DNA of 64,000 bases, taken from Aristolochia californica. Taxonomy: Eukaryota > Streptophyta > Magnoliopsida > Piperales > Aristolochiaceae. The stretch's first letter is position 1. Every line of letters begins with the position of its first letter. Below, piece after piece: positions 3,689 to 63,918 of this stretch. Location: assembly GCA_029961685.1 (NCBI GenBank), contig JARWKL010000008.1:23159981-23223980 (forward strand). Reading direction: 5' to 3'. Below the pieces are notes generated by a model. It was not told where the DNA came from. It worked only from the letters and a program-made list of their open reading frames with translations, and did no database searches. Position numbers and translations under genes: made by a program.

Positions 3689-3689
3689 C

Positions 3690-3863: not shown

Positions 3864-3894
3864 GCACATTTTGCATCAACATCAGCAGGGCTCC

Positions 3895-5705: not shown

Positions 5706-6274
5706 GGATCGATTCACCCGACACTCTTCTCTGGGTTCCTAATTGTTATACGTTTGAGATGATGGGTTGAAGTTCTTGTAATTCTAGATCGGATACAAAG
5801 GCTCATAGGCAGGGCACCAGCTGAACCTATAGGGAGACATGGAGATGAAGATGAACAGTCACGGTGATGGCAAACTTGAAAGGGAGAATATGAAGGGTCG
5901 TGGCTAGAAAATAGATCTGGGGAGGACGTGGAGGAATAGGCTTGAAGGGGGAAGGAGCTCAGAAGAGAAGGTGATGACGGTGAGGGATAATCAAGCTTTC
6001 GAAGGAAGCTTGCACCTTGGACGTCGTTGGGGGAGAGAATTCGATCTCAGGCCTCGTGAGAGAGAGAACCGAATCTCATTTACAACTATGCTCAATGCTT
6101 ACTTTCCATTCAAATGACACCCCTATAAATAACAGGAACGCCCCCTTACACAGCTAGCGCAAAATCCAAGTATTGAATGAAATTACATAAATGCCACCTA
6201 TGAGAACATTCAGAAATTACATACATTATCCTCTACGTCTACCTGCTACTCTAGATGCTATGGAGTCCATAACA
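5687..6274 (-). repeat. 5' LTR of J
   Basis: 588 bp, starting TGTTATGACC and ending GGAGTCCATAACA. That terminal block is shared with the LTRs of B, E, F, H and the solo LTR at 20411. The outer flank begins GTATC. With no left LTR, no duplication can be confirmed. Confidence 0.8.
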
Positions 6275-28479: not shown

Positions 28480-28927
28480 TGTCTTCCCTTGCCATGGATC
28501 AGGTCACCCTTCTTTCCTCTCTTCCCTCCATGGATGATCTTGACGTTGGAAGAGAAACCTTGTTTCTTGAACGAGTAATGGTGGAACTCAATTTAGAATG
28601 AAGGAGTTTTGGAGGAAGCTCAACCTTGGACCTCACTCAAAGGGAGAATCTGACCTTGACCTCTGAGGGAGAATCAGACCTGTAAAATATAATTTTCTCA
28701 ATACTTGCCTCTCTTTTCCTTCACGTCCCCCTAAATAGGGTTGAGGACGAAAATACAAAGATGACCCATTAGGTCAAGTGGTTCACGCCACATTACACTG
28801 AACCAACCCAAAATAAACCAAACCAAATAAAGTAAACCAAACCGAATTGAAATTACATGAAAAGTAAATTGACATAATTTAATTCCTATGCCTATGGATA
28901 ACTCGTGATGCTATGGAGTCCATAACA
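28480..28927 (-). repeat. 3' LTR of F
   Basis: TGTCTTCCC (TGT plus a 7-bp deletion) to GGAGTCCATAACA. Followed by TCACCTC and 20 consecutive C (28934-28953), the complement of an expanded polypurine tract. Confidence 0.93.
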
Positions 28928-29669
28928 TCACCTCCCCCCCCCCCCCCCCCCCCTAGGAGAAAGAGCTTGTCCTCAAGCTCAAAGTATGGGTAGAGGGTGT
29001 GAAACGCCGCTAATGGCTCCCATGTCGTGTCACTAGGGTCAGCATCTGCCCATTGCACTAAGATCTCCCAATCACCCTGAATACGGCGAGTTTGTAATAC
29101 CTGTGCCGGGGTAGAAAGTACACATCCCTCATGGAGTGGTGGCAGCGGGGTGTGCAGCAAGGACGAATCACCGTGGAAGGCCTTTAATTGTGAGACATGA
29201 AAGACATTGTGAATTCTGGCCTCTGGCGGAAGCTGCAATCTGTAGGCCACCGTCCCAATGCGGTCCATCACCTGAAAGGGACCATAATATTTTGGAGAGA
29301 GCTTGTGGAGGCTGTCAACGATAGCTGCCTGTAGTGTTGGAGACGCAACCAAATATAATCTCCAGGAGAAAAGAAGACTTCTCGGTGCTTCTTGTCATAA
29401 TATTGTTTCATAAAATGTTGTGCCTTCTGTAGATGAGTGCGCACCTCAGTGATGAATGTGTCTCTTTCAGCCAATGCTTGGTCCAAAGTTGCGACTTTAG
29501 AGGCCCCTGGTTCATAGGCTAAAAGACGGGGAGGTTCTCTACCATATACCACCTTGAATGGGGTTGTACCGAGTGCGCTGTGGTACGAGGTGTTGTAACA
29601 AAACTCAGCCCAAGTGAGCCACTTAACCCACCTCTTAGGTGAGTCCCCCACGAAACACCAGAGATACAT
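28879..29669 (-). pseudogene. pol: F integrase C-terminal part and chromodomain
   Basis: Frames 29268-29669 and 28879-29352. The first starts after D-G-Q-T-E-V-V-N-R (catalytic Glu kept) and has [20 protein letters not shown] and D-Y-I-W-L-R-L-Q. The second has K-L-S-P-K-Y-Y-G-P-F and a chromodomain with W-E-I-L-V-Q-W-A-D-A-D-P-S-D-T-T-W-E-P-L, ending Y-F-E-L-E-D-K-L-F-L. It then reads through the poly-G polypurine tract as a Gly run into the LTR, to a stop at 28879. Confidence 0.9.
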
Positions 29670-30342
29670 TTCAATGGTTCTGTTGACGACCTCTGTCTGA
29701 CCATCAGTCTATGGATGGTAGGCTGAAGAAAAGGCTAACGTTGTGCCTTGTAACTTGAAGAGTTCTTTCCATAAGGTACTTGTAAAGATTGCATCCCTAT
29801 CACTGGTAATTGAATTTGGCATCCCATGTAATCGTACAATGTTATCCATAAAGAGTTGAGCGACCTATGTTGTAGTGTAAGGATGTGCCAGAGGAATGAA
29901 ATGCCCATATTTAGAGAAATGATCCACCACTACAAGGATAACAGATTTACCCGACGAAGAAGGAAGTCCATCTATGAAGTCCATAGAAATATCAGACCAG
30001 ACCTGTGACGGAAGCTGAAGTGGTTGGAGCAACCCCGCTGGACTTAATGTTTCAGCTTTATTCCGTTGACAAGTCTGACAAGCCGCCACATAATCAGCTA
30101 TACTGTGCTTCATGCACCTCCAATAAAATTCCCTACTGATTCAAAAATATGTTTTCTGTTGGCCCTCATGTGTACTGTCATGGGAAGAGGCCAAAATGCT
30201 GTTAATCAGAGGGGATGTGTGGTGTAGAAAAATTCTGTTTTTGTAGAGGACGAGATTGTCCTGAACCGTCCAATGTGGTGCCGTTGTGCCCTGCTGGATA
30301 TCCTGGCATAAGGAGATAATCTGGGTACTGTTGTGCCTCTTC
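29670..30342 (-). pseudogene. pol: F integrase zinc domain and core
   Basis: 30113-29865 has [18 protein letters not shown] and V-V-D-H-F-S-K-Y-G-H-F. T-S-D-R-D-A-I-F-T-S lies near 29770-29800. H-D-S-T-H-E-G is at about 30165-30185. Stops at about 29710, 29870 and 30140 break it. Confidence 0.88.
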
Positions 30343-31425
30343 CTATATAGAATCCAACAAGAGAGCTCTGGGCTGACTGATGGCGTTTAATTGCGGCTCT
30401 GGAACGTCCCAGCGAGATAAGGCATCAGCCCCTACATTCAAACTTCTCCGTTTATACTCGACAGAAAAGTCAAACCCCATAAGCTTACTTAACCAATGCC
30501 GTTGTGGTGAAGTAGTGAGACGCTGCTCAAGAAGATACTTGAGGCTGCAATGATCAGTGCGAATCAAAAAACAACGTCCCCAAAGATAAGGGTGCCAATG
30601 TTGTATAGCTTTCGCCAATCCAATCAATTCCCTCTCATAAGCTGCCAACTTGTGGCGGTGTTGGCTCAATTGACGGCTAAAATAAGCAATCGGGTGACCT
30701 TGTTGGTGCAACACTGCGCCAATACCGCCCCCTGAAGCATCACATTCCACTACAAAGGACTCCTCAAAGTCAGGGAGCTGCAAAACTGGGGCTGATGATA
30801 AGGCGTCTTTCAATTGCTAAAAGGAATGAGCTGCTGTCTCTGACCAGGTAAAAGCATTTTTCTTGAGGAGATTGTTGAGCGGAGCTGCAAGCTGGCCATA
30901 GCTACGAATAAATTTTCTATAATATCCAGCTAGGCCCAAAAATCCTCTTAAGGCTGTAATAGATGTAGGAATAGGCCAATCTGTGACCGCTTGTATCTTA
31001 CTCTGGTCTACCTTCACCCCTGATGCTGAAATAACGTGGCCCAAATATGCCACTTCTGATGTGCCCATAGAACATTTTGACTGATTTAAAACCAAATGAT
31101 GTGAACGTATAAGAGAAAATACCTGGTGAAGGTGCTGAAGATGTTCTTCCCAGCTTTTGCTATAGACCAAAATATCGTCGAAAAAGACCAATACATATTT
31201 TCGCAAGAGAGGGGAAAATACCTCATTCATGAGGGCCTGGAAGGTGGAAGGCGCATTTGACAGACCAAATGGCATTATGAGGAATTCAAAATGGTCGTGA
31301 TGCGTTCGGAACGCTGTTTTCTCCACATCTGATGGATGAACTCGGATTTGATGATAGCCAGATTTCAAATCGAGTTTAGTAAATATAGTAGCTCCATGTA
31401 GCTCATCTAACAGCTCGTCGACCAC
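30343..31425 (-). pseudogene. pol: F reverse transcriptase and RNase H
   Basis: 30817-31425 is an open RT frame: [28 protein letters not shown], the intact catalytic [10 protein letters not shown], and [11 protein letters not shown]. After one stop, 30343-30813 has the RNase H: V-E-C-D-A-S-G-G-G, A-Y-F-S-R-Q-L, A-Y-E-R-E-L and R-T-D-H-C-S-L-K-Y-L. One stop in about 1.1 kb makes this one of the best-kept pol stretches in the window. Confidence 0.92.
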
Positions 31426-31464
31426 TGGAATAGGAAATTTATCTTTAATTGTATGGGCATTGAG

Positions 31465-32160
31465 TTATCGGTAATCCACACCGAACCTCCATGACTTATC
31501 ATGCTTGCGGACTAGTAATACCAGTGAAGAAAAAGGAGACCTGCTGGGCTGAATAATACCCTGTGCTAACATCTGTCGGCACTGCCTTTCAATCTCATCC
31601 TTCTGTAAGTGAGGGTAACGATACGGACGTACCACTACCGGCTCGGTCCCCGTTTTCAAATGGATACGGTGATCACAGTGCCTAAGTGGCGGTAAGGCAG
31701 TAGGGTCTTGAAAGATATCCTCAAATTCTGTAAGTAAGTGAGATAATTTACATGTATTTGTGGACTGGACCTGGGCAACGTGTAGTGAGCAGGTGAGTGG
31801 TGCTTGTGTGCCATGCAATATAATCTGATGTTGGTCCTCTATAAAAGACATGGTCAGAGCATGGAAATCCCATAGTATTGGTCCCAACAATTGTAGCCAT
31901 TTAATTCCTAGCACCAAATCGAATTCTGATAGTGGAATCACCAGAAAATCTGCAACAAATTTATATCCCTCAATATCAAAGTGTGTGGCTGGTGATATGC
32001 CTACACTAGTAATTTTAGCCCCATTGGCTAATGATACAGAAAGACCATTCTGTTGCTGTACTACTAACCCAAGTTGTTCTGCCACCTGCTAACTGATGAA
32101 ATTATGTGTACTACCCGAGTCAACTAAAGCCAGTAACTGTAAATGATGTAATTGGGCTTT
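31465..32160 (-). pseudogene. pol: F protease and RT N-terminus
   Basis: The protease site A-L-V-D-S-G-S-T-H-N-F-I-S is at about 32093-32131, followed by a stop. Frame 31465-32085 (206 codons) then has S-V-S-L-A-N-G, F-L-V-I-P-L-S-E-F-D-L-V-L-G-I-K-W-L-Q and the RT start [14 protein letters not shown] nonsense change (TAA in place of a glutamine codon) near 31464 precedes the next RT frame. Confidence 0.9.
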
Positions 32161-33522
32161 AACCTGCATTGTGCTTGCACTGCGTAGACCATTCATAGCA
32201 TGAAGGGAAATCTCTGGACCTTCTTGGTCAGTTTCCACAATTTCTTCCTCTTGTGGTATTTCTTCTCCACCCTCCCACAGACATATACTGCATAATCGTT
32301 TGCAGTGGTGACCAAAAACATACTGTTCATCTCAGTTAAAACAGAGGCCCTTGGCCTTTCTCTGCTCCATTTCCTGTCTAGTAAGTTTTTTGAAGTAAGG
32401 AGCAGGTGGAGCTGAATTACAGATGTCTGGGCGTGGGGCTGCACTGTCTCTAAATCTTGGAGGTCCATAGGAATGGTTTGGCGCAGAGGCATTGTGCCTT
32501 CCTGGCCAAGCTGGTTTTCTGACCAGTGACTCCTTTAGAACACGCTGCTTGTGCTCAATTGCTCTGGCTAAATTCATAGCGTGGTCTAAATCTGTAGGAG
32601 CATGTAATTCAACTTCTAAACGCAGAGCTTCTGTCACACCAGCAGTAAAAATATGAACATACTGTGTGTGGCTAACAAACTGGTTTGCTCGGGCTAACCC
32701 TTCCTGGAAGGTCTTTTGGTACACCTCTAGTGTTCCAGTTTGTTTGTAATTGATTAATTCGCCCAATGGATTGCTACTAGCAGGAGGACCAAATCTCATC
32801 ATGCAAGACTGTCTAAAAGTTGCCCAATCCTGAACCACTTGGTCATTTTGGAATTGGTGGTACCATAGAAGCGCTTCATCGAGCATGTGGTAGGTGGCCA
32901 AATACACTTTCTCATCCGCAGGTGTTTTTTGATGGTAAAAGAACTGATCACACTTGGCTAACCAAATCAAAGGGTCCTTAGACCCATCATACGTAGGAAA
33001 GTCAAGATTTAAATACCTGGGCACAGTGTTTGGTCCTTGAACGGCAGGCCCCAAATGGGAATGGTGTTGACGCATTGGTGGTTGTGGGGGAGGTGGTGGG
33101 TGGAATGGATGGTGTTCGGCCGGTGGAGAGTAGGCAGCTGGAGGTTGGGCTCGTGTATCATGGTCCTCTTGTCGCCGGAGGAGAGCTTGGATGGCAGCAT
33201 CCATTGATTTTATTGCCTCACGCAAATCAGAGGTTGTTTGACGCACCTCTTCCAGGGCATGAGCCTGGTTATCTATCCTTTGCCTATTATCTTCCACTAA
33301 CTGTCTCAAATCGTCAGGGGAAGAGGAATCCCCAAGGGTGGACCTGTCTGATACCAAGATGTTAGGTTCTTCCCTTGCCATGGATCGAGTCACCCTTCTT
33401 TCCTCTCTTCCCTCCATGGATGATCTTGACGTTGGAAGAGAAACCTTGTTTCTTGAACGTGTAATGGTGGAACTCAATTTAGAATGAAGGACGTTTGGAG
33501 GAAGCTCAACCTTGGACCTCAA
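32161..33522 (-). pseudogene. gag: F gag (396-codon ORF), initiated in the LTR
   Basis: The ORF 33522-32332 starts in the 5' LTR and crosses the primer site as I-L-V-S-D-R-S-T-L-G-D-S-S-S. A helical region follows, then a Pro/His-rich linker. The Gag core is P-R-Y-L-N-L-D-F-P-T-Y-D-G-S-K-D-P-L-I-W-L, with F-Q-E-G-L-A-R-A-N. It stops inside the zinc knuckle (C-F-N-stop-D-E-Q-Y), whose rest, G-H-H-C, is at about 32300-32315. The longest Gag in the window; one nonsense mutation separates it from pol. Confidence 0.92.
33347..33356 (-). other. Primer-binding site of F (tRNA-iMet)
   Basis: TCTGATACCA, 3 bp from the LTR, translated in frame as part of Gag. Confidence 0.9.
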
Positions 33523-33809
33523 AGGGAGAATCTGACCTTGACCTCTGAGGGAGAATCAGACCTGTAAAATATAATTTTCTCAATACTTGCCTCTCTTTTA
33601 CTTCATGTCCCCCTAAATAGGGTTGAGGACGAAAATACAAAGATGACCCATTAGGTCAAGTGGTTCACGCCACATTACACTGAACCAACCCAAAATAAAC
33701 CAAACCAAATAAAGTTAACCAAACCGAATTGAAATTACATGAAAATTAAATTGACATAATTTAATTCCTATGCCTATGGATAACTCGTGATGCTATGGAG
33801 TCCATAATA
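33360..33809 (-). repeat. 5' LTR of F
   Basis: TGTTAGGTTCTTCCC to GGAGTCCATAATA (terminal C changed to T). Contains the gag start at 33522. Confidence 0.93.
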
Positions 33810-34375: not shown

Positions 34376-34819
34376 TGTTAGGTTCTTCCCTTGCCATGGA
34401 TCGAGTCACCCTTCTTTCCTCTCTTCAGTCCATGGATGATCTTGACGTCGAATTCTTGTTTCTTGAACAAGTAATGGTGGAACTCAATTAGAACGAAGGA
34501 GCTTTGGAGGAAGCTCAACCTTGGACCTCAAAGGGAGAAATCCGACCTAGACCTCTGAGGGAGAATCTAACCTGTAAAATATAATTTTCTCAATACTTGC
34601 CTCTCTTCTCATTCATGTCCCCCTAAATAGGGTTGAGGACGAAAAATACAAAGATGACCCATAGGTCAAGTGGTTCACGCCACATTACACTGAACCAACC
34701 CAAAGTGAACCAAACCAAATAAAGTAAACCAAACCGAATTGAAATTACATGAAAAGTAAATTGACATAATTTAATCCCTATGTCTATGGATAACTCGTGA
34801 TGCTATGGAGTCCATAACA
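34376..34819 (-). repeat. 3' LTR of H
   Basis: TGTTAGGTTC to GGAGTCCATAACA, 444 bp. Polypurine-tract complement with 13 C at 34823-34835. The pol stop codon TGA (34820-34822) lies exactly at the LTR edge. Confidence 0.95.
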
Positions 34820-36360
34820 TCACCCCCCCCCCCCCTGGAGAAAGAGTTTGTCCTCAAGCTCAAAGTATGGGTAGAGGGTGCGAAATGCCGCTAATGGTTC
34901 CCATGTTGTGTCACTGGGGTCAGCATCTGCCCATTGCACTAAGATTGCCCAATCACCCTGAATACAGGGAGTTTGTAATACCTGTGCCGGGGTAGAAAGT
35001 ACACGTCCCTCATGGAGTGGGGGCAGCGGGGTGTGCAAGAAAGGCGAATCACCTTGGAAGGCCTTTAATTGTGTGACATGAAAGACGTTGTGAATTATGG
35101 CCTCTGGCGGAAGCTGCAATCTGTAGGCCACTATCCCAATGCGGTCCATCACCTGAAAGGGACCATAATATTTAGGAGAGAGCTTCTGACATTTGGAGGC
35201 TATCAATGACAGCTGCCTGTAGTGTTGGAGACGCAACCAAACATAATCTCCAGGAGAAAAGAAGACTTCCCGGTGCTTCTTGTCATAATATTTTTTCATA
35301 GAATGTTGTGCCTCCTATAGATGAGTGTGCACCTCAGTGATGAATGTGTCTCTTTCAGCTAATGCTTGGTCCAAAGTGGCAAATTTAGAGGCCCCTGGTT
35401 CATAGGCTAAAAGATGTGGAGGTTCTCTACCATATACCACCTTGAATGGGGTTGTGCCGAATGCGCTGTGGTAGGAGGTGTTGTAACAGAACTCAGCCTA
35501 GGCGAGCCATTTAACCCACCTCTTAGGTGAGTCCCCCACGAAACAGCGGAGATACATTTCAATGGTTCTGTTGACGACCTCTATCTGACCATCAGTCTGC
35601 GGATGGCAGGCTGAAGAAAAGGCTAACGTTGTGCCCTGTAACTTGAAGAGTTCTTTCCAGAAGGTACTTGTAAAGATTGCATCCCTATCACTGGTAATTG
35701 AATTAGGCATTCCATGTAAGCGGACAATGTTATCCATAAAAGTTTGAGCTACCTAAGTTCCAGTGTAAGGATGCGCCAGAGGAATGAAATGCCCATACTT
35801 AGAGAAACGATCCACCATTACAAGGATAACAGATTTACCCAACAAAGAGGGAAGTCCATCTATGAAGTCCATAGAAATATCATACCAGACCTGTGACGGA
35901 AGCTAAAGTGGTTGGAGCAACCCAGCTGGACTTAATGTTTCAGCTTTATTCCGTTGACAAGTCTGACAAGCCGCCACATAATCAGCTATACTGCGCTTCA
36001 TGCCCCTCCAATAAAATTCCCTACTGATCCGAAAATATGTTTTTTGTCAGCCCTCATGTGTACTGTCATGGAAGGAGGCTAAAATGCTGTTAATCAGAGG
36101 GGATGTGTGGTGTAGAAAAATTCTGTTTTTTTAGAGGACAAGATTGTCCTGAACCCTCCAATGGTTTGTCGTTATCCCCTGCTGGATGTCCTGGCATAAG
36201 GAGATAATATCCGGGTACTGTTGTGCCTCTTCCTGTATAGAATACAACAAGAGAGCTCTGGGTTGACTGATGGCATTTAATTGCCGCTCTGGAATGTCCC
36301 GGCGAGATAAGACATCAGCCCCGACATTCAAACTTCCCGGTTTATACTCGACAGAAAAGT
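34820..36360 (-). pseudogene. pol: H integrase and chromodomain
   Basis: 34820-35299: [20 protein letters not shown], then a chromodomain with W-A-I-L-V-Q-W-A-D-A-D-P-S-D-T-T-W-E-P-L and Y-F-E-L-E-D-K-L-F-L. 35498-35737: T-S-D-R-D-A-I-F, D-G-Q-I-E-V-V-N-R (catalytic Glu kept). Zinc domain near 35960-36080. Stops near 35320, 35495, 35755 and 35905 break the frame. 36131-36331 is the RNase H-integrase linker. Confidence 0.9.
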
Positions 36361-37461
36361 CAAACCATAAGCTTACTTAACCAATGCCGTTGTGGTGAAG
36401 TAGTGAGACGCTGCTCAAGAAGATACTTGAGGCTGCAATGATCAGTGCGAATAAAAAAAGAACATCCCCATAGATAAGTGCGCCAATGTTGTATAGCTTT
36501 CGCCAATCCGATCAATTCCCTCTCATAAGCTGCCAACTTGTGGTGGTGTTGGCCCAGTTGACGGCTAAAATAAGCAATCGGGTGGCCCTGTTGGTGCAAC
36601 ACTGCGCCAATACCGCCCCCCGAAGCATCACATTCCACTACAAATGACTCCTCAAAGTCGGGGAGCTGCAAAACTGGGGCTGAAGATAAGGCGTCTTTCA
36701 ATTGCTGAAAGGAATGAGCTGCTGTCTCTGACCAGGTAAAAGCATTTTTCTTGAGGAGATTGTTGAGCGGAGCTACAAGTTGGCCATAGCTACGAATAAA
36801 TTTTCTATAATATCCAGCTAGGCCCAAAAATCCTCTTAAGGTTGTAATAGATGTAGGAATAGGCCACTCTGTGACCGCCTGTATCTTACTCTGGTATACC
36901 TTCACCCCTGCTGCTGAAATAACGTGGCCCAAGTATATCACTTCTGATGTGCCCATAGAACATTTTGACCGATTTAAAACCAAATGATGTGAACGTATAA
37001 GAGAAAATACCTGGTGAAGGTGCTGAAGATGTTCTTCCCAGCTGTTGCTATAGACCAAAATATCGTCGAAAAATACCAATACATTTTTTTCTCAAGAGAG
37101 AGGAAAATACCTCATTCATGAGGGCCTGGAAGGTGGAAGGCGCATTTGACAGACCAAATGGCATTACGAGGAATTCAAAATGGCCATGATGCATGCGGAA
37201 CGCTGTTTTCTCCACATCTAATGGATGAACTCGGATTTTATGATAGCCAGATTTCAAATCGAGTTTAGTAAAAATAGTAGCTCCATGGAGCTCGTCTAAC
37301 AGCTCGTCCACCACTGGAATAGGAAATTTATCTTTAATCGTATGGGCATTGAGTTGTCGGTAATCCACACAGAACCTCCATGACTTATCATGCTTGGGGA
37401 CTAATAATACCGGTGAAGAAAAAGGAGACCTGCTGGGCTGAATAATGCCCTGTGCTAACAT
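36360..37461 (-). pseudogene. pol: H reverse transcriptase and RNase H
   Basis: 37048-37461: [33 protein letters not shown] one-base shift just before the active site (run of T near 37085) moves to frame 36360-37079, which has [28 protein letters not shown] and R-T-D-H-C-S-L-K-Y-L. So the catalytic residues are intact but one frameshift separates the fingers from the palm. Confidence 0.92.
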
Positions 37462-37470
37462 CTACTCACA

Positions 37471-38040
37471 CTACCTTTCAATCTCATCCTTCTGTAAGTG
37501 AAGGTAACGATACGGACGCACCACTACCGGCTCGGTACCCGTTTTCAAATGGATACGGTGATCACAGTGCCTAAGTGGCGGTAAGGCAGTAGGGTCTTGA
37601 AAGATATCTTCAAATTCTTTAAGTAAGTGAGATAACTTACATGTGTTTGTGGACTGGACCTGCACAACCTGTAGTGCGCAGGTGAGTGGTGCTTGTGTGC
37701 CATGCAATATAATCTGATGTTGGTCCTCTATAAAAGACATGGTCAGAGCTTGGAAATCCTATAGTATTGATCCCAACAATTGTAGCCATTTAATTCCTAA
37801 CACCAAATTGAATCATGATAGTGAAATCACCAGAAAATCTGCAACAAATGCATATCCTTCAATATCAAAGTGTGTGGCTGGTGATATGCCTACACTAGCA
37901 ATTTTAGCCCCATTGGCTACTGATACAGAAAGACCAGTCTGTTGCTGTACTACTAACCCAAGTTGTTCTGCCGCCTGTTGACTGATGAAATTATGTGTAC
38001 TGCCCGAGTCAACTAAAGCCAGTAACTGTAAAGGATGTAA
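37471..38040 (-). pseudogene. pol: H protease and RT N-terminus
   Basis: A-L-V-D-S-G-S-T-H-N-F-I-S at about 37976-38014, then F-L-V-I-S-L and V-L-G-I-K-W-L-Q with stops (for example after G-S-I-L near 37760). Frame 37471-37740 gives the RT start C-D-H-R-I-H-L-K-T-G-T-E-P. A nonsense codon (TAA) at 38041 separates it from gag. Confidence 0.87.
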
Positions 38041-39365
38041 TTAGGCCTTAACCTGCATTGTGCTTGAAATGCGTAGACCAGTCATAGCATGAAGGGAAAT
38101 CTCTGGACCTTCTTGGTCAGTTTCCACAGTTTCCTCCTCTGGTGATATTTCTTCTCCATCCTCCCACAGACATATACTGAATAATCGTTTGCAGTGGTGT
38201 CCAATGACATACTGTTCATCATAGTTAAAACAGAGGCCCTTGGCCTTTCTCTTGTCCATTTCCTGTCTAGTAAGTTTTTTGAAGTAAGGAGCAGGTGGAG
38301 CTGAATTAGAGATGTCTGGGCGTGGGGCTGTACTGTCTCTAAATCTTGGAGGTCCATAGGAAGGGTTTGGCACTGAGGCATTGTGCCTCCCTGGCCAAGT
38401 TGGTTTTCTGGCCGGTGACTCCTTTAGAACACGCTGCTTGTGCTCAATTGCCCTGGCTAAATTCATAGCGTGGTCTAAATCTGTAGGAGCATGTAATTCA
38501 ACTTCTAATCGCAAAGCTTCTGTCAAACCAGCAGTAAAAATATGAACATACTGTGTGTGGCTAACAAACTGGTTTGCTCGGGCTAACCTTTCCTGGAAGG
38601 TCTTTTGGCACACCTCTAGTGTTCCAGTTTGTTGTAATTGATTAATTCTCCCAATGGATTGCTACTAGCTGGAGGACCAAATCTCATCATGCAAGACTGT
38701 CTAAAAGTTGCCCAATCCTGAACCACTTGGTCATTTCGGAATTGGTGGTACCATAGAAGCGCTTCATCGAGCATGTGGTAGGCGGCCAAATACACTTTCT
38801 CATCCGCAGGTATTTTTTGATGATAAAAGAACTGATCACACTTGGCTAACCAAATCAAAGGCTCCTTAGACCCATCATACGTAGGAAAGTCAAGTTTTAA
38901 ATACCTGGGCACAGTGTTTGGTCCTTGAACGGCAGGCCCCAGATGGGGATGATGTTGACGCATTGGTGGTTGTGGGGGAGGTGGTGGGTGGAATGGATGG
39001 TGGTCGGCCGGTGGAGAGTAGGCAGATGGTGGTTGGGCGCGTGTATCATGGTCTTCTTGTCGCAGGAGGAGAGCTTGGATGGCAGCATCCATTGATTTTA
39101 TTGCCTCACGCAAATTAGAGGTTGTTTGACGCACCTCTTCCAAGGCATGTGCCTGGTTATTTGTCCTCTGCCTAGTATCTTCCACTAACTGTCTCAAATC
39201 GTCAGGGGAAGAGGAATCCCCAAGGGTGGACCTGTCTGATACCAAGATGTTAGGTTCTTCCCTTGCCATGGATCGAGTCACCCTTCTTTCCTCTCTTCCC
39301 TCCATGGATGATCTTGACGTTGGAAGAGAATTCTTGTTTCTTGAACGAGTAATGGTGGAACTCAA
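38041..39365 (-). pseudogene. gag: H gag, initiated in the LTR
   Basis: 39365-38616 opens in the LTR, crosses the primer site as L-V-S-D-R-S-T-L-G-D-S-S-S, and has P-R-Y-L-K-L-D-F-P-T-Y-D-G-S. A 1-base loss near 38630 shifts to 38613-38041, with F-Q-E-R-L-A-R-A-N and a knuckle C-F-N-Y-D-E-Q-Y-V-I-G-H-H-C whose second Cys is Tyr. Apart from these it is close to the Gag of F. Confidence 0.9.
39235..39244 (-). other. Primer-binding site of H (tRNA-iMet)
   Basis: TCTGATACCA, 3 bp from the LTR. Confidence 0.9.
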
Positions 39366-39696
39366 TTAGAACGAAGGAGCTTTGGAGGAAGCTCAACCTT
39401 GGACCTCAAAGGGAGAAATCCGACCTAGACCTCTGAGGGAGAATCTGACCTGTAAAATATAATTTTCTCAATACTTGCCTCTCTTCTCATTCACGTCCCC
39501 CTAAATAGGGTTGAGGACGAAAATACAAAGATGACTCATAGGTCAAGTGGTTCACGCCACATTACACTGAACCAACCCAAAGTGAACCAAACCAAATAAA
39601 TTAAACCAAACCGAATTGAAATTACATGAAAATTAAATTGACATAATTTAATTCCTATGCCTATGGATAACTCGTGATGCTATAGAGTCCATAACA
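39248..39696 (-). repeat. 5' LTR of H
   Basis: TGTTAGGTTC to GAGTCCATAACA, 449 bp; contains the gag start codon at 39365. Confidence 0.95.
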
Positions 39697-42800: not shown

Positions 42801-42908
42801 GGAGTGTTGACAAAGTAGTAGTGGCATTTCTTGAAATTAAATGGTTAAACGGCATATTTTGTAATTACTAAGTGTTTTAATTTTTTCTTTCGTTATCATG
42901 TATTAAGG

Positions 42909-43313
42909 TGTTATGGTCCTGGATCTGACACAAGGATTCTTTAGGAGGATTTGGGATCTGCCACGGGTTACGGGTCTTCCATGTATTACTACAGGGATAG
43001 TAGGAAAACATGGGGAAGACGAAGATCAATGGAGGATGAGAGAATACGTGGGTTTTTGAGGAAAACCCTAACCTCGAGATCAAGAAGGTGATCTCAAGCC
43101 TGTTTACGCTTGATTTAACCTAATTCTCAATGCTTCCATTTCTCATTACTCTTACCCCTTAAATAGGGTCCCCATTAGGGTTTGGGATAAAATATTACAA
43201 AAATACCCCTATAAATAAAATATTCCAAAAATACCCTTGTGGCCTAAACTGAAATAAAATAAAGTAAATTGAAGAAAAATAACTAAAATAATAATATTTT
43301 TATGTGCATAACA
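42909..43313 (-). repeat. 3' LTR of I
   Basis: 405 bp, TGTTATGGTCC to GTGCATAACA; strong similarity to 47124-47442 (about 85-90% by eye), with short indels. Confidence 0.9.
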
Positions 43314-43388
43314 TTACACTCCCCCTGGAAAAACGAGCTTGACCTCAAGCTCGGAAGTAGTGCGAAAAGGCAGATCGAGGGATACTTG
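43314..43388 (-). other. Polypurine tract and pol C-terminal tail of I
   Basis: TTACACTCCCCCTGG is the complement of a polypurine tract next to the 3' LTR. The minus frame leading to it reads L-P-F-R-T-T-S-E-L-E-V-K-L-V-F-P-G-G. It corresponds to the E-L-E-D-K-L-F-L-Q-G-G end of the pol chromodomain in B, C, F and H. This shows that I descends from a chromovirus whose gag-pol was replaced. Confidence 0.7.
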
Positions 43389-44648
43389 CTAGCCCCAAGC
43401 TAGCATATAATCTCGAATCCTATTAATAAAATCGCGTCCACTAGAATCTATGAAAAATACTTTATTGGTCATCATTGTTGTCATAAATTGAGTAACAACT
43501 TCTTTGCCAATGAAATCAGCCGCTGGTAGAGGCCCAACAGGGAACTCAAATTCAGTATGGTCAGTCCCTTGGGACACTCATGTGACACTCATGTGATCTG
43601 TGATATCCATGGTTTAATTCTCTCGTCATCCAAAACTGGGCCCCAAAAAACAGTGAAACCTGCCTTTGGCTCCGGTTTTATAGCAACAGGACCATTTGGG
43701 CAGAATATATAGGCACCAGAAGCCTGAGGATCCGCACCACTGCCATCATCTCCTATATAATATTTATAAGACTGCTGGAGAGATGCCTTCACCGAGCTTG
43801 TGGTATGATGATACTGTATTAGTTTCCCATCAATAGCAGCATAATTAAGTACTAGATGTCCTTGCCCAACACGTATAAAATCACTGTTACGTCCTACAGA
43901 CATTTCAACCTCTGATAGAATCGATTTTGGGCCTGTACTTTCGGAACTTGAAACAACATAGGTTCGGAAACCTAGAGGAGGTACAGTTGCTGCAAAAGCA
44001 AGCCAATCCATGGGAATATCAATTGGCAACACACCCAACTGTGCCTGGAGATAGAAGTTCCGCTTGCCTAATGCTACATTAGCAATTGGTAGTAGCTGTG
44101 ACTCAATTTCTTTTCCCTTAGCATCACTCACAATAATTGTCGCACTGGTGACCGGTATTCTAACAATATCCGCTCTTCCATATAAGAGAATTGTAGACAA
44201 CAACAACCAGATCATTTCCATTGGCAAGTTGTGCCTCCGATGCAGGACAATAGCTAATGTTTAAAAGAGGCCACTGTGCAAATTTAGTTGATGGGTTTCT
44301 GCATCTAGAGCTCCTATTCAACTCTGTCAAGCAAGCAAGTGAAGACTCAACCAACTCTGCAGCCTCTGAATAGCTAATGTAGAGTCTAATTGCATAATCA
44401 ATGGCCACATGCTGCTTTTCAGTTCCACTGACTCCATCATGATGTTGAGCAAGTGCCAGAGCATCAGTCAGAGATGCTATTGTAGGGCATGAAGGCCCTG
44501 AAACATCTCTCCCTTTAAGAAACTCCAATTGACTGGCAGCCAAGTAGTAGCCACACATCATTCTCACATAACCCTTAATAACTGGTCTATTTGTGATGTA
44601 TCCTGCCCAATAAACATTTGCTCGATCTGCATAAGCGAAGTAGTCAGC
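43389..44648 (-). pseudogene. Captured GH38 alpha-mannosidase fragment
   Basis: Starts F-A-Y-A-D-R-A-N-V-Y-W-A-G-Y and continues with G-Y-Y-L-A-A-S-Q-L-E-F-L-K-G-R, A-L-A-Q-H-H-D-G-V-S-G-T-E-K-Q-H-V (the GH38 helical-domain motif whose first His binds zinc), and S-L-A-C-L. After a frameshift near 44165-44190 come E-S-Q-L-L-P and Y-V-V-S-S (43589-44227). A piece E-F-P-V-G-P-L-P and D-S-S-G-R-D-F-I-N-R-I-R-D follows (43389-43577). That is about 420 codons of a plant class II alpha-mannosidase (vacuolar type) without introns, though such genes have many. N- and C-terminal domains are missing. Confidence 0.9.
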
Positions 44649-45434
44649 AGTCTTGAGTCCACTGAAATTCCGCAAATAGTTGGTAGAGCTGCACCTCATT
44701 TCTACAGGCGCCACTGAAGCACTTCGAATGGCAGACACATGTAGTACTGTAATAGCAGCCACCATTGGACCCTTCATCCTACTGTTCAACCCAGCCACAA
44801 AAAAACCATACAACAAGTCACACACTACGAAAATTGTCCGTGCAGGTTCTTTCACGTCTTCAAGTCCACAAAGAACATTTCCACCAGCAGACTCCACACT
44901 GGCCATTAAGGTGTCAACTGGAGGCTGAACATGGTGGTCTATGCAGACATCGTATCCCTTAAGCAAAGCATGTCGGCATGCTTCTGCTCTGAAAACTGCA
45001 TCCTCTACCCCAGACCTATACTTAGGCTCAAAATCTTCATGTTGTAGGACAAACAATGACTCACCAACAGATCTCCCCTCCCGGAAGCTTGTTTTCCACC
45101 AGTCAGGTGAGACTATCCAAGCACCAGAACACAAGGCAGTGCAGAAAGTTATAGTTCTTCTTACTGTTCCTGTGATAACATGGGTGCAAGAACTTCCATG
45201 AGAGGTAATAGAACCCCCCAGGTCCTTAATTATGTTTGGTAGCGGTGCATGCTGCACTTCATCAGTAATATGCATTAACATGACTACTGGATAGTCAAAG
45301 GAAGATCTTTCGGCATTACCAACAACTTTAAAATAAGTCTCTGTATTTCCCTCACCATGACCTACCATAAAAGTAATCTGTTGTGGACTTCCAGGACTTA
45401 CATTTGATATCGATGTATTCCTCACCATACCCAA
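44160..45434 (-). CDS. Chimeric BRCT-linker-mannosidase ORF (424 codons)
   Basis: One uninterrupted frame. Residues 1-46 are unassigned, about 47-205 BRCT-type, 206-262 an unassigned linker with one hydrophobic segment, and 263-424 GH38 mannosidase up to V-V-V-Y-N-S-L. The joins keep the frame, giving a potential fusion protein of two unrelated plant proteins inside a retroelement. Whether it is translated is unknown: nearest upstream ATGs lie in the KLCR part, and no promoter other than the LTR is visible. The catalytic nucleophile region of the mannosidase is absent, so no enzyme activity is expected. Confidence 0.7.
   Translation of the reverse strand: MGMVRNTSISNVSPGSPQQITFMVGHGEGNTETYFKVVGNAERSSFDYPVVMLMHITDEVQHAPLPNIIKDLGGSITSHGSSCTHVITGTVRRTITFCTALCSGAWIVSPDWWKTSFREGRSVGESLFVLQHEDFEPKYRSGVEDAVFRAEACRHALLKGYDVCIDHHVQPPVDTLMASVESAGGNVLCGLEDVKEPARTIFVVCDLLYGFFVAGLNSRMKGPMVAAITVLHVSAIRSASVAPVEMRCSSTNYLRNFSGLKTADYFAYADRANVYWAGYITNRPVIKGYVRMMCGYYLAASQLEFLKGRDVSGPSCPTIASLTDALALAQHHDGVSGTEKQHVAIDYAIRLYISYSEAAELVESSLACLTELNRSSRCRNPSTKFAQWPLLNISYCPASEAQLANGNDLVVVVYNSLIWKSGYC
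44649..44819 (-). other. Unassigned linker between BRCT and mannosidase in I
   Basis: About 57 codons: L-L-Y-G-F-F-V-A-G-L-N-S-R-M, then a hydrophobic M-V-A-A-I-T-V-L-H-V-S-A-I, then A-P-V-E-M-R-C. It fits neither the BRCT protein nor GH38. It may be a fourth captured gene fragment, perhaps a membrane-protein segment. Confidence 0.45.
44820..45300 (-). pseudogene. Captured BRCT-domain DNA-repair protein fragment
   Basis: The frame has I-I-K-D-L-G-G-S-I-T, C-T-H-V-I-T-G, L-C-S-G-A-W-I-V-S-P-D-W-W, S-F-R-E-G-R, then H-A-L-L-K-G-Y-D-V-C-I and S-A-G-G-N-V. This is one BRCT repeat with its Trp in W-I-V-S-P-D-W, and the start of a second. The pattern matches plant multi-BRCT proteins of the PAXIP1/MDC1-like type (At3g21480/At4g03130 group, from memory), which bind phosphorylated proteins at DNA breaks. 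No introns. It is fused in frame to the linker and mannosidase. Confidence 0.85.
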
Positions 45435-45631
45435 AGAGTTCTGGACAAAGTTTGTATCATATTTACATTCACTTTCATCAGCAAGATCTCATGGTAAATC
45501 TTTCTTGAAGTTGATATGATGACCCCCTTTAACTTTGCTTGACTTTAATGAGGACAATGAGGAGTCCCAAACTTTCCGCTCCTCACTTGGCACACCCATC
45601 TGTGCTGCAACCCCAACAAGTGTCTTGGCTG

Positions 45632-46141
45632 ATCTCCTTTTGTATCACAAATCATACCCCTTCTCCTCCTATCAGCAGCCTCTGCAAGAGAGACCGGTGT
45701 ACCATGATCTTTATGGTTATCAAGAGTCGTCTGGCACAAATTCTGGGCCTCATCAAACTGAAGTGCGGGGACAAGGGCCACAGCTACATCACAGCAAGTC
45801 TCCCCCACCCTTGGAGCTGTGTCTCCCAATTCTTGTTGCTAGATTTCCAGGCCCATCTTATAACACTGTACGGAATTGGCAAGTTAGCCGACCATAGCAT
45901 GAGTGTCAACCAATTGTATATGGCTAGCAAATTTGGCAAGAGCATGCTTCTGACCGTCATGCAAGTTGGGATTTTCAATTGAGTGCCCAAGATAGGGGAT
46001 AGCCTAACTGTACTGTCCCAAGTTGCAGGATAGTGTTGCTATCACATGCAAATACAACACCATCTCTAATTTGGATTTCCCAGCACCACGTATTTCAAAA
46101 GAGTTTGCTGCCCGAAGAGCAAGATTTAGAGCCTTCTGGGG
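45632..46141 (-). pseudogene. Captured kinesin-light-chain-related (KLCR) TPR fragment in I
   Basis: Minus frame with N-P-Q-K-A-L-N-L-A-L-R-A-A-N-S-F-E, L-H-V-I-A-T-L-S-C-N-L-G-Q-Y-S, H-A-L-A-K-F-A-S-H-I-Q-L, then L-G-D-T-A-P-R-V-G-E-T-C, A-L-Q-F-D-E-A-Q-N-L-C and S-L-A-E-A-A-D-R-R-R-R-G-M-I-C-D-T-K-G-D. These are consecutive TPR helices of plant KLCR proteins. Two to three stops are present. No introns. It ends at T-K-G-D, where BRCT-side sequence begins. The homologous but shorter copy is in J (3690-3863). Confidence 0.85.
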
Positions 46142-46621
46142 ATTACACGCACATGGACTGTTCGCATCAGCAGCAAAATACGGCCCCTCACAAAAAAAAT
46201 TCAGCAGTCTCCAGGAAAAAAATTCTAGGAATCTCGGCATACCCAGAAAAATTTCATGTCAAAATTCATACACACCAGCCGGAATTCTCTCAATTGGCCA
46301 TCGATGCTCTGCTTCACGACCCAGAGACCCTTTGTCCCCAATTTTCGAGCAGCATTGCTACTGCTCAGCCCCTTTGACCCACATCAACGCCCTGTAAAAC
46401 TTATTTTGATCTAAAAATGGATGAAGTTTCCGAAGCTTACCCCCAATGGCGCTGAAGACGGTTCCCCGCTGGGCTTCTGAGGGTGAGGTTGAGGCAGAGA
46501 ATGAGAATCTGGAAGCCAGCGCCTACCGGATTTGTTTCCGACGGCGCTTCCTCTTTTTCCGGTGGACTCTTGTTTCTGCCGGTGCTTGTAGATGTTTGGA
46601 GACAGAGGAGGGATGCCCTAA
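46142..46621 (-). other. Leader region of I between gag-like ORF and KLCR
   Basis: No domain recognised. A basic K-K-R-K-R-R-R-K-Q stretch followed by S-x-S-x-S-P-S-E-A-Q (about 46450-46590) resembles the leader of J. Plus-strand ORFs here (46023-46397) are antisense to the KLCR part and are not supported. Confidence 0.45.
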
Positions 46622-47131
46622 CTAATTCGCCGTGATCGAGACAGATCGGAATGCTTCCGTCTGCTGTGCAGAAAATTTTTTTGCTGGCCGTGAGAAGGAG
46701 ATTTGGGAGGTTGAACCCAAATCAGCCTGTACCGAGGAGATTTTTGCAGGAAACCACTCCGATTTCCCCAACTCTGCATCGTTGTTGGTCGGCTTTGGAT
46801 TTCCTTGCGCGAAAATCTTGAATTTTGCTGAAGCCTGGCCTTTCCGCCTGTCCGAATTTGAAGTTGCCCCCGCAGGGACTTCGACTGGTACACAGGATAA
46901 AATTTTCAATTTTTCTGGCTCGTCGCTTGTTTTCAATTCTTCTGTGGCTTTTCCTTCGTTGCGTACATATTGCTCGAAAATTTCAGGTCGTGTGACCATT
47001 TTTGCGGTAGCGCGTGGCTCCCCTGTCCGACATTTCATAAAAATTTCATACAATGATCGTGTTTCTCTTGCTTCTCCATGCAAGCTTGTACCTTCTCCCA
47101 ATTTGGGAATACGTCCCCTATTGGGTTCCAT
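46622..47131 (-). CDS. I gag-like leader ORF (169 codons), initiated in the LTR
   Basis: Starts inside the LTR at 47131 and runs uninterrupted to 46622. Polar, rich in Lys, Glu, Ser, Ala and Pro, with no Gag core, zinc knuckle or other known domain. The position, starting in the LTR and leading into the body, matches the Gag N termini of B, F, H and J. The tRNA primer site expected near 47100 is not recognisable, so the 5' LTR edge has been altered. Confidence 0.5.
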   Translation of the reverse strand: MEPNRGRIPKLGEGTSLHGEARETRSLYEIFMKCRTGEPRATAKMVTRPEIFEQYVRNEGKATEELKTSDEPEKLKILSCVPVEVPAGATSNSDRRKGQASAKFKIFAQGNPKPTNNDAELGKSEWFPAKISSVQADLGSTSQISFSRPAKKFSAQQTEAFRSVSITAN

Positions 47132-47442
47132 GCATTACTGTAGGGATAGTAGAAAGATATGGGAAAGACGAGAATACGTGGGTTTTTTAGGAAAACTCTA
47201 ACCTCGAGATCAAGAAGGTGATCTCAAGCCAGTTAACGCTAGATTTAACCTAATTCTCAATGTTTCCATTTCTCATTACTTTTACCCCTTAAATAGGATC
47301 CCCGTTAGGGTTTGGGATAAAACATTAAAAAAAAACCCATATAAATAAATTATTCTAAAAATACCCCTGTGGCCTAAACTGAAATAAAATAAAGTAAATT
47401 GAATAAAAAAACTAAAATAATAATGTTATTGCGTGCATAACA
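47101..47442 (-). repeat. 5' LTR of I (inner end degraded)
   Basis: Clear homology to 42995-43313 from about 47124 to GTGCATAACA at 47442. Weak similarity back to 47101. The first 50-80 bp of the LTR and the primer site are missing or replaced. It is followed by TAAGG. Confidence 0.85.
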
Positions 47443-47447
47443 TAAGG

Positions 47448-60606: not shown

Positions 60607-61332
60607 CTAATTATTAGTGCATATGGAGGCATTGTTTAATTTATATTTAATTTTCATTTTGTCTCCAATAGCATTGGCTAATGTTTGAGTAGTTTTCTCA
60701 AAGTATTGGGTAGGAATTAACCCTTCCTGGATGCAGTTTAAGTCTGCTCCACTATCAATCAGAGTTGTCAGTTTAGGAATGACAAAGTTCTGATCAATAA
60801 CCAAATTAATAATAGTATGCCATCTTTGATGGATGACTTTGGTGACGTGATTAAGAAAAGAATCCTCAACTTTCTTTTCTTGATGCAAAATATTTTGTTC
60901 ATATTTTTGTTCAAGCTTTTTATATAGAGATTTTAATTCTTTTAATTCAAGCTTGATTTCTTTAATTTCTCCTTGTAATGAGGAGATGGATACTGGTTGT
61001 TTTGAAGAATGAGTTTCTTCATAACGACCAATGATTTCCTTCAAAGAATAAGGTTTGACTCTTTCGATGGGAGGTATCTTTGAAGTACTCTGAATTTGTA
61101 AAAGATATTCTTTAATTGAATATCTTTTAGTTTGAGGATCTTCCTCTTGATCAATGTTCTTAAGCATAAGTTGTTGATCATTGGTAAGAACATTAATCTG
61201 ATGTATTTGTGCCACATATTGTAGGTGTGAACAACTGCAATCTGGGTCGTCATCTGATTGACTGGATGAGGCATAATCAATATCATCCCCAGAATCAGAA
61301 TTTAAGAGAATTTTAGCCAACTGGATTCTCAA
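60607..61332 (-). pseudogene. Pararetrovirus 2 coiled coil and aspartic protease
   Basis: 241 codons. Residues about 120-160 form a Lys/Glu/Leu coiled coil (E-I-K-E-I-K-L-E-L-K-E-L). The protease site T-L-I-D-S-G-A-D-L-N-C-I is at about residues 189-200. It is followed by a gap with stops (60415-60606) before RT. It would cleave the polyprotein. Confidence 0.85.
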
Positions 61333-61374
61333 TCCTTCATCAATCTGAAGTTGGTTAAGTTTCTCTTTAGTTTT

Positions 61375-61416
61375 GCATCGTTTGGAATAGTGGCCTAATT
61401 TACCACATTTATAACA
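61375..61416 (-). pseudogene. Pararetrovirus 2 CCHC zinc knuckle
   Basis: Encodes C-Y-K-C-G-K-L-G-H-Y-S-K-R-C, a perfect CX2CX4HX4C knuckle, as at the C terminus of caulimovirid coat proteins. The neighbouring frame 61417-61731 is Arg/Ser-rich and broken. Confidence 0.9.
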
Positions 61417-61731
61417 GAATTTTTTTTTTGTCTGGAGGATTTCTTCTAGGGGGTGGTCCTTGACGAGAAGTCTAACGTGGAGAAGTCTCCTAGATTCATG
61501 ACGAGTCTTCTGATGAGACTGTCATTTTGGATATCTCCTACTCTAGTGTGAATAGGGTTCCTGTCTCCTGGAATGAGAGACTTTACCTTTGCCCTTCCTC
61601 TGATGGGAAGGTGGTGGTCCTATGTCACAAGCAAATTGTTCACAGAATTCACCAAGCTCACGCTTACCAGTAAGGTTTTGCTTCTTAAGCTGAACTTGAA
61701 GCTTTAAATCATTACATAAGGTCAGTCCTTC

Positions 61732-62750
61732 TTAGATGATAGCACTGGTAAGGAGACCATATGTATATTGATGGTAGTTAATAATTCCTACCTCGTTACC
61801 TAACCTTTTTCTTACCTTGCTGGCAAAAAGAGTTGGTAATCCATCAATGAATTTAGCTTTCCAATATTCATTATTGGCATCTGGTCTTTGCATAACCTTA
61901 GTGAGGAATACATCCTTATACCATCGAAAATGGCTAAGTGTTCGACATCTAAGATTTTGCAAAATCTCTCTTCCCTTATCTGTTTGGGAAGTCAAATTTC
62001 CAATGAAATGATGAACAATACATGAAATCAAGGTATAAATTGCATCGTCCTCACCTAGGTAGTCTTGGCTAGATTCAGTTTTGATAACCTTTTTGGAATT
62101 GTAAATTTCATGATGTTGTTCAGGGTGAGGATATTATCCCACCAACCTTTGAGGGCACCAGAAAACCCTACAGTAAGCATTTCTACAATTCCTTGATCGG
62201 AATTCTTTTGTTGCCGACAGATAGTACGATACATAAGCATTCGGCGACAATGTTCCAATATCTGATATTCAGATAATCCATCTATATTCCATTCATAAAT
62301 GGATTTTCCATCATAAGCTTTTTGATCTATATACAAATTCTCTTCATACAATAGGTTCTGAGGTGTAGGCCTATGGTAATAGAGTTTGTTAGGTAGATCC
62401 CATTTCCGAGTAGACTTTTTCACATAATCCAATTTCTGGATACTCGGATCTTGAATCATTTCCTGAAGAATTTCTTCAGTTTGATTGACATTGGTTAAAC
62501 CTAAATCTTGGAGATTAGTGTTGTGACCAACATCAGAATCAGAGTATGCTGAAGGAGTTAAATCTTCAGATGTTTGCGATAAAGAATCTTCTTGAGATTC
62601 ATGAGATTCAAGCATTTGAATACTTTGGAGAATCTCAGCAGCTTTGGCTGCCTTGGCTTGTCGAAGTTGATCTTCAGAAAGATTCAATCTGCCAAGCTGA
62701 GATAATAATTCCTCAATTACTTCAGAATTATTATCCAATTTGAAGTTCAT
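61732..62750 (-). pseudogene. Pararetrovirus 2 coat-protein-like region
   Basis: 62055-62750 (231 codons): acidic N-terminal helix, then Y-E-W-N-I-D-G-L-S-E-Y-Q-I and the G-A-L-K-G-W-W-D-N block characteristic of this Gag/coat group. After a frameshift 61732-62031 continues with C-R-T-L-S-H-F-R-W-Y-K-D-V-F and F-I-D-G-L-P-T-L-F-A. Together they give the capsid core before the zinc knuckle. Confidence 0.8.
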
Positions 62751-63328
62751 AATAGGAACAGGTGGTTTGATGAGTTCATCAATAAAGGTAATTTGCGAGA
62801 AGGTAAGTCATAAGGATTTTGACAATATTTCTCTGGAGTTCCTTTTTCCAATAAATCTTCAATACGAATTAGCTGTTGGCCAATTGTTTTGAGATTTAAA
62901 TTGGTAAAATTGTTTTGTCTCCTGATTTGCCCCATGGGATTGAGATTGGCCTCAGGATTGACAAAAGCAACTGCTTCAACAAAATCAAGTGATTTCCCTG
63001 AGGAGCTTGGAAATTCAAGCTTTATCGGATCAGTCGGAGGATGTATTGATCTGATGGTTGTGCCAGATTGAAGTTGCCATTCTTTCGTTAGGGTGGAAAG
63101 AGTGGGCGATGTGGAAGAAACGAAGGGTCGTTTCTCCGCTTGCTTCAATCTATAACGCATAAACCAATCAATAAAAGACATAATTACCCTATTTGTTTCC
63201 AAATAAAGATAAAAGTCCTTTGAAAATTCCATGCGGTTTGCGTCCCCATAGGTGTCAAAAAACCATCTTTTGAAACCTAGATTATTGGGCTGAAAGAATT
63301 CAACTTTGATTGTTGCTCGATCCACCAC
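62747..63328 (-). pseudogene. Pararetrovirus 2 region between movement protein and coat
   Basis: 193 codons beginning V-E-F-F-Q-P-N-N-L-G-F-K-R-W-F-F-D-T-Y-G, with F-I-D-W-F and later N-L-N-P-M-G-Q-I-R-R-Q-N-N-F-T-N. Its end overlaps the start of the next ORF by 4 bases. This block is common in endogenous pararetroviral polyproteins of plants; its function is unknown to me. Confidence 0.6.
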
Positions 63329-63375
63329 AAAAGGGGGTGGATTCTAGTCAATCTGTTGAGGTGTAAAAATCATAA

Positions 63376-63918
63376 TCACAGATTGAAACCAGTCATTTCA
63401 CTGGGAGTGGGAGAAGTACGTTCATGCTCCCTTTCCTTATAGACACCATGAGGAATTTGGGTGTTTGTTATGTGGATTCCTTTTAATGAGGAATCATCCT
63501 TACAAGATTGTGTTTCATCCACCTCCTCGTGTAGGCACGAGGTTTGGCCTACATCCGAGTATCTGGATGATGGTGGTAAAGAGACTCGGTAGGAAGTCTT
63601 GGATTTAAAATTAATCACCACGTCTCCATCGGTAGATTGAAGAACTTGATCAATATCCTGATTAATCAGGAGTCTTGGAGGAACAGCCTGTGGAATTGTC
63701 CAACTAGCTAGGAAATGAATTTCCTCCCAATTGATCATTCTTGGAGTGGCAACATTTGCACTCATAAGATCTGTTTCAATTAAGACTGTCTTACCCTGAT
63801 CTGGTAAGTGTAATACCTTAGGGACTAAGGTATTCATGATTTTGAAATGAATCCTTGCAATAACTGCAATGGTTTCAGTTCCAGGAATAAAATTGTATCC
63901 CTGTGTTAGAATCCTCAA
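63376..63918 (-). pseudogene. Pararetrovirus 2 movement protein, C-terminal part
   Basis: 180 codons with G-T-E-T-I-A-V-I-A-R-I-H-F-K-I-M-N, L-I-E-T-D, N-V-A-T-P-R-M-I-N-W-E-E-I-H-F and a Ser/Arg-rich tail. This is the C-terminal half of a 30K-type movement protein. A stop (TAG, 63919-63921) precedes the first Met; further upstream sequence runs to the window edge. It is not closely similar to the movement protein of viral segment 1. Confidence 0.7.

Follow-up and report, generated by a model that had tools for sequence, protein, structure and literature searches.

The window analysed here is a stretch of 64,000 nucleotides of the Aristolochia californica genome, and the element at its positions 42909-47442 is an LTR retrotransposon, which is read on the minus strand because of its pol-tail remnant and its polypurine tract. 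In the sense direction, which is reversed in plus coordinates, the element consists of a leader, a piece of a KINESIN LIGHT CHAIN-RELATED (KLCR) gene, the BRCT part of a GNAT/BRCT gene, 54 codons and a piece of a GH38 α-mannosidase gene (Table 1). An earlier note on this DNA had described LTRs with exact TAAGG duplications around fragments of these genes, in this order, and a retained C-terminal tail of pol with a polypurine tract. All of this is borne out, and it is now added that the order is that of the sense direction of a minus-strand element and that the 54 codons lie between BRCT and GH38. The absence of retroviral enzymes was also correctly noted, as no gag, protease, reverse transcriptase, RNase H or integrase domain is found in the scanned open frames of the window copy; of what characterizes an autonomous Ty3-type element, only the pol-tail remnant is present.

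Table 1. Positions, in the 64-kb window, of the parts of the studied element and of the other elements discussed in the text
Feature	Position	Strand	Remarks
Target-site duplication TAAGG, left copy	42904..42908	.	read from the sequence
3' LTR, full, TG...CA	42909..43313	-	405 bp
pol C-terminal tail remnant and polypurine tract CCAGGGGGAG	43314..43391	-	like the pol tails of the Ty3-type elements of the same window
GH38 α-mannosidase piece	43384..44657	-	P0240 residues 338-754 of 1016, 75% identity
442-codon open frame, from BRCT through P1/P2 into GH38	44163..45488	-	442 codons
P1 and start of P2, 54 codons without assigned origin	44658..44819	-	also in other copies
GNAT/BRCT gene piece, BRCT part	44820..45590	-	P0003 residues 311-569, 78% identity
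KLCR piece	45591..46144	-	P0121 residues 245-416, 70% identity
Leader without assigned origin	46145..47127	-	common to other copies
5' LTR, U5 end and primer-binding site lost	47128..47442	-	~315 bp
Target-site duplication TAAGG, right copy	47443..47447	.	read from the sequence
Second gene-carrying LTR element	3686..6273	-	LTR (5687-6273), primer-binding site TGGTATCAGAGC, leader, DUF760 piece, KLCR piece
Caulimovirus-like remains	7757..8485		endogenous
Ty3-type element	28482..33807		neighbour of the next
Ty3-type element	34384..39694		neighbour of the preceding
Caulimovirus-like remains	60610..63918		endogenous

The outer LTR ends of the element are TG...CA, and the 5' LTR lacks its inner end; given the loss of this end and of the primer-binding site, the window copy is a relic. 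Its GH38 piece is truncated compared with the enzyme, by a third at the beginning and a quarter at the end, and has two frameshifting indels relative to the parent gene. Three in-frame stops are present in the KLCR piece and one in the BRCT piece, and these two pieces are out of phase with each other. Within the KLCR piece, the stretch that matches residues 245-416 of P0121 is followed by about 13 codons that look, by eye, like its residues 570-583. The 54 codons between BRCT and GH38 have no match in Pfam or in the PDB, and their second part, P2, continues further in the class B and class C copies described below.

The LTRs of the window copy can be aligned with 28 differences in 315 columns and three indels, corresponding to 91% identity without gap columns and a K80 distance of 0.095, within the range of 0.031-0.109 found for 16 copies of the family. 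At substitution rates of 1.3e-8 and 7e-9, which may not be those of this plant, the window copy would be about 3.7 or 6.8 million years old. The BRCT tree places the capture after the split from A. fimbriata (support 0.897), and the GH38 tree places it before this split (support 0.864).

Several other elements are present in the window. The second gene-carrying LTR element has a DUF760 gene piece (Pfam 7e-13) and a KLCR piece that overlaps the KLCR piece of the studied element with 84% DNA identity, and, by eye, it is cut at 3685 by another LTR. The leaders of the two elements are weakly alike. As their LTRs differ, it is possible that KLCR was captured twice. The caulimovirus-like remains include a movement-protein domain (PF01107, E 1e-11); those at the far right have open frames that match DUF7588 (E 4e-14) and in which a zinc-knuckle motif can be made out by eye. 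The two neighbouring Ty3-type elements are 94% alike over 5.3 kb, and both have gag, RT and integrase-end domains. The remnant in the studied element is similar to the pol tails and the polypurine tracts of these neighbours, kin of which could therefore be its helper.

When the whole genome was searched with the internal part of the window element, at least 87 matches on at least 12 contigs were obtained, so that the second copy that the earlier note had called for is joined by many more; 34 of the loci found in this way, together with the window, make up the sample of 35 places considered here. The dispersed copies have junctions in common. The single element that had been described is real, and it belongs to a wider family with different cargo in different copies and with pieces of at least nine host genes in the cargo overall. 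Long GH38 pieces are carried by 12 copies, and other copies share the BRCT core, the LTR and the pol tail with the window element and have PRMT, glutamate synthase, PPR, poly(A)-binding protein (PABP), vacuolar sorting receptor (VSR) and EF-2 sequences as cargo.

Four classes can be distinguished by their cargo. Class A (the window element, L009-L019 and the fragment L042) carries GH38. In class B (L020-L031) the order is KLCR-BRCT-P1-P2, and in complete members a PRMT3-like piece comes next, which in L021 matches 2fyt (E 1e-11), and then probably glutamate synthase. The seven loci of class C have the stretch from BRCT to PRMT in common; PPR cargo lies upstream of it in four of them (L032, L033, L034 and L036), L035 and L038 have a different upstream sequence without Pfam matches, and the match of L041 begins only within BRCT. 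The PPR cargo of L033 comprises an E-motif PPR and a P-type PPR in succession, which are taken here to be two genes. In class D (L037, L039 and L040) the piece of the BRCT gene is longer. Six or more host gene pieces are carried by L037 alone, in the order PPR, PABP (E 2e-14), VSR (E 3e-17), GNAT/BRCT, glutamate synthase (Pfam 1e-12), EF-2 (E 4e-54) and perhaps a helicase piece; this last identification in class D (0.014) and that of glutamate synthase in classes B and C (Pfam 0.003) are weak. All recognised pieces are oriented in sense, and a six-frame Pfam scan of L037 gives matches in the sense frames only.

In a tree of the core (31 rows), for which the bootstrap had not settled, class A forms one side of a branch (100/99), as does class D (100/100), and five of the seven class C members cluster inside class B, with the other two elsewhere in B. 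This pattern of the classes therefore points to a replacement of the cargo in steps. Perfect 5-bp target-site duplications are found at 11 of the 35 places, with 10 different sequences, and therefore the family has inserted repeatedly; the motif search behind this count can yield chance pairs (one false second pair was seen at the window), and L027 and L029 were left out of it. L020 and L022 both have GTTTC as well as tandem-repeat surroundings and may represent one event. A primer-binding site of the initiator-Met type, TGGTATCAGAGC, lies behind the 5' LTR in 15 of the 16 copies with LTR pairs, being exact in eight and altered by one or two bases in seven, the window copy being the one that has lost it. 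The polypurine tract is present beside the 3' LTR in the window copy and in 14 of the 15 others, the exception being L014, for which the LTR pair used was cut. Six loci (L013, L020, L022, L032, L034 and L041) lie beside or inside tandem-repeat arrays, as if inserted in satellite DNA, and the tandem-repeat offsets flanking L013, L020 and L022 are near 180 bp.

The reading frame is often preserved where pieces of different genes meet. The phase from KLCR to BRCT is kept in 19 of 23 copies, from BRCT to GH38 in seven of 11, from BRCT to PRMT in nine of 16, from PABP to VSR in one of three and from BRCT to glutamate synthase in one of two. Phase is also lost within single genes, where it is kept in 23 of 31 copies for BRCT and in six of 12 for GH38, and so the losses at the junctions look like later decay. 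In L037, a single 643-codon open frame takes in leader, PPR, PABP and VSR sequence and reaches into BRCT, and downstream of it the second BRCT half, glutamate synthase and EF-2 are in one frame with two stops. In L039, the PPR-PABP, VSR-BRCT and glutamate synthase-EF-2 junctions are in phase, and PABP-VSR and BRCT-glutamate synthase are out of phase, with shifts within the pieces; L040 keeps the phase at VSR-BRCT but not at PABP-VSR. Long open frames are also present in class C, namely 364 codons across PPR and BRCT in L034, 444 codons across both PPR parts in L033, and 469 codons through BRCT, P1, P2, PRMT and the glutamate synthase-like piece in L038 (2638-4044, oriented). The part of L038 upstream of this last frame is unlike L033. 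Altogether, at ten junctions where homology fixes both frames, the phase is kept in the majority of copies or in one copy at least, which by chance would happen about twice in 100,000 if each had a probability of 1 in 3, in a count that was made after the fact and from which the weakly identified glutamate synthase (B and C) and helicase (D) pieces were excluded, as was the DUF760-KLCR junction of the second element, where the frame shifts between the pieces.

The changes in the GH38 piece were obtained by comparing the twelve copies with the spliced parent gene and were considered shared when present in at least 75% of the copies. The shared changes comprise 88 replacements, 63 silent changes and no stop (6.5 stops expected, P 0.005), and all twelve copies have only one indel in common, a frame-preserving insertion of 9 bp. 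The private changes comprise 200 replacements, 73 silent changes and 20 stops (13 expected), with a dN/dS of 0.98, and look neutral. The KLCR and BRCT pieces have 22 and 29 shared replacements, respectively, and none of their stops is common to as many as half of the copies; the stop positions confined to a single copy number 7 in KLCR and 22 in BRCT. When the three genes are pooled, 139 replacements and no stop are shared versus 721 replacements and 49 stops that are private (P 0.0004), a comparison that counts base changes for GH38 but amino-acid differences for KLCR and BRCT and that leaves out the changes present in more than one copy and in less than 75% of the copies (57 replacements, 21 silent changes and 6 stops for GH38, and 8 and 11 stop positions for KLCR and BRCT). 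After polarising the stem by outgroups, the shared set comprises 101 replacements and no stop (P 0.004).

The same 4-bp deletion in GH38 is present in L016, L018 and L019, and two BRCT stop positions recur, one in seven of 31 copies and another in six of 33. Because of these, some copies look as if derived from frame-broken ancestors, so that an open frame is not strictly needed. The simplest reading of the shared and private changes is that the lineages that kept moving held the frame open while the protein sequence drifted, a reading against which this deletion and these recurrent stops count. Almost as probable as not, however, is the reading that the frame has not been under selection at all, the in-phase junctions and the missing shared stops being by-products of the youth of the copies and of a sampling of mainly open copies. 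The existence of frame-broken groups is in agreement with this, as are the modest result of the polarised stop test, the retrospective nature of the phase counts, and junctions such as PABP-VSR, BRCT-glutamate synthase and BRCT-PRMT, which are in phase in some copies only; it is harder to reconcile with the ten in-phase junctions and with the pooled difference between shared and single-copy stops.

A quite different explanation of the element would be that the KLCR-BRCT-GH38 fusion is one domesticated chimeric gene that functions in the plant and that the LTRs merely spread. This is improbable. It is true that three copies are annotated as host proteins by NCBI, namely P0001 (L014 3016-4584, 523 residues at 100%), P0002 (L012 9384-9998, residues 82-286 at 100%) and P0005, named alpha-mannosidase At3g26720-like (L011 4297-5430, residues 28-405 at 99.7%), but these models span different parts of the chimera, and the cargo varies by class. 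The dN/dS of the shared GH38 changes, 0.51 with zero stops, would also fit a functional protein, but the ratio is lowered by the parent gene's own branch, which is part of this set, and the private changes show the near-neutral ratio and the excess of stops given above. The shared GH38 replacements, when considered alone, lean to variable sites (P 0.04); however, when the polarised shared replacements of all three genes are pooled, conserved and variable sites are affected equally (n 101, z 0.4), whereas the parents' own BRCT and GH38 changes avoid conserved sites (n 113, z 8). In this pooled comparison of KLCR, BRCT and GH38, there is no support for purifying selection on the fusion protein having been the dominant force.

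The nearest parent proteins of the GH38, BRCT and KLCR pieces are encoded on three different scaffolds (of 61.3, 51.2 and 42.3 Mb). The GH38 parent gene is at C1:58.637-58.652 Mb, the GNAT/BRCT parent gene is at C111:44.352-44.360 Mb, and the nearest KLCR parent, the KLCR3-like protein P0121, is on the 42.25-Mb scaffold. With the nearest parents on different scaffolds and the copies lying between LTRs, an origin from a host fusion gene, or from genes adjacent at a normal locus, is rejected. When copy L014 is aligned with the GH38 gene by a splice-aware script, which prefers GT-AG ends by construction, 13 GT-AG introns of 78 to 3278 bp are skipped, and a fourteenth gap falls past the captured end. 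Splicing the parent gene at these 13 sites gives the annotated P0240 protein sequence. In the window copy, 12 of the 13 introns are skipped exactly, and the thirteenth is split in two at a rearranged spot. Three introns in the BRCT gene (1054, 879 and 450 bp) are missing from all three copies tested (window, L014 and L037), and the 172 codons of the KLCR piece are uninterrupted by any insertion. Because 13 GH38 introns and three BRCT introns are exactly missing, these two genes were captured via spliced mRNA, as the earlier note had proposed for the captured parts in general. Both ends of the GH38 piece fall within exons, and so the pieces are cuts of mature mRNA and not whole shuffled exons. 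At the start of GH38, a short ACTyAAr stretch is common to class B (GGACTTAAAG) and the parent (CCACTCAAGA), which is what template switching would leave.

Capture by Pack-MULEs or Helitrons is characterized by terminal inverted repeats and by introns that are usually kept. Around the studied element, no inverted repeats of at least 40 nt are found at 42400-48000, and the introns are absent. A DNA route of capture inside the LTR element (Helitron- or Pack-MULE-like, or by nested insertions) has therefore hardly any probability left and is rejected for GH38 and BRCT by the exact loss of 16 introns, the copies moreover being bounded by LTRs, primer-binding sites, polypurine tracts and 5-bp duplications, even though one maize survey attributes more gene captures to Helitrons and other DNA transposons than to LTR elements (PMC2774510).

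The reading that accounts best for these observations, with a probability of roughly nine in ten, is that this family consists of non-autonomous LTR retrotransposons, which have cis parts similar to Ty3-type ones and take up spliced mRNAs of the host. By this mechanism, the element RNA and cellular mRNAs would be packaged together in particles provided by an autonomous helper, and the reverse transcriptase would jump between templates during first-strand synthesis, whereby stretches of mRNA would land in sense between the leader and the polypurine tract. The product would integrate and be transcribed itself, and later rounds would add or replace pieces, with the open frame presumably being selected in those copies that go on transposing. 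The sequences are read here as the result of serial template switching onto mRNAs, in which an open frame, and not a working protein, may have been what selection favoured.

Gene capture by LTR elements is already known. Host genes or gene fragments inside LTR retrotransposons, as in the family described here, have been reported for maize (PMC2774510) and for rice and sorghum (PMC3726574), and the maize report came across no LTR element that combined fragments of two or more genes. The NLR genes of pepper, in the available text of the study of their LTR-mediated retroduplication (PMC5664825), are also similar, with spliced mRNA inside widely spread LTR elements that are mostly without gag or pol; the difference is that what is described there is the retroduplication of single gene families and not a serial fusion of unrelated genes. 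The nearest precedent is maize Bs1, and its mention in the earlier note was apt. Bs1 is the example given in a 2026 review (PMC13317346), according to which an LTR retroelement has taken up pieces of three host genes and joined them in a new chimeric gene. Both cases have spliced pieces of several unlinked genes within one LTR element (splicing being established here for GH38 and BRCT). In A. californica, however, the genes and the lineage are different, the cargo varies among the members with predicted hybrid frames, and, compared with the three genes of Bs1, at least nine are represented in the family and six or more in L037. No prior description of the A. californica family, or of serial cargo exchange in one LTR family, was found in searches of open-licence papers by title and abstract start.

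As the NCBI models P0001, P0002 and P0005 represent parts of a mobile element, they are a trap for surveys of gene families and of fusion genes. With dozens of copies that share or swap pieces, and with the parents in the same genome, the order of capture, the breakpoints and the forces acting on the fused frame can be read, and the A. californica family is a natural workshop for mosaic genes. A more far-reaching proposal, which is tentative, is that gene shuffling in this family renews itself, the RNA being selected as one long open frame almost regardless of its amino acids, for example by escaping nonsense-mediated decay or by being packaged after translation, while pieces of host mRNAs are taken up, joined in phase and replaced repeatedly. 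If this is true, each round of shuffling would make a new multi-domain protein frame.
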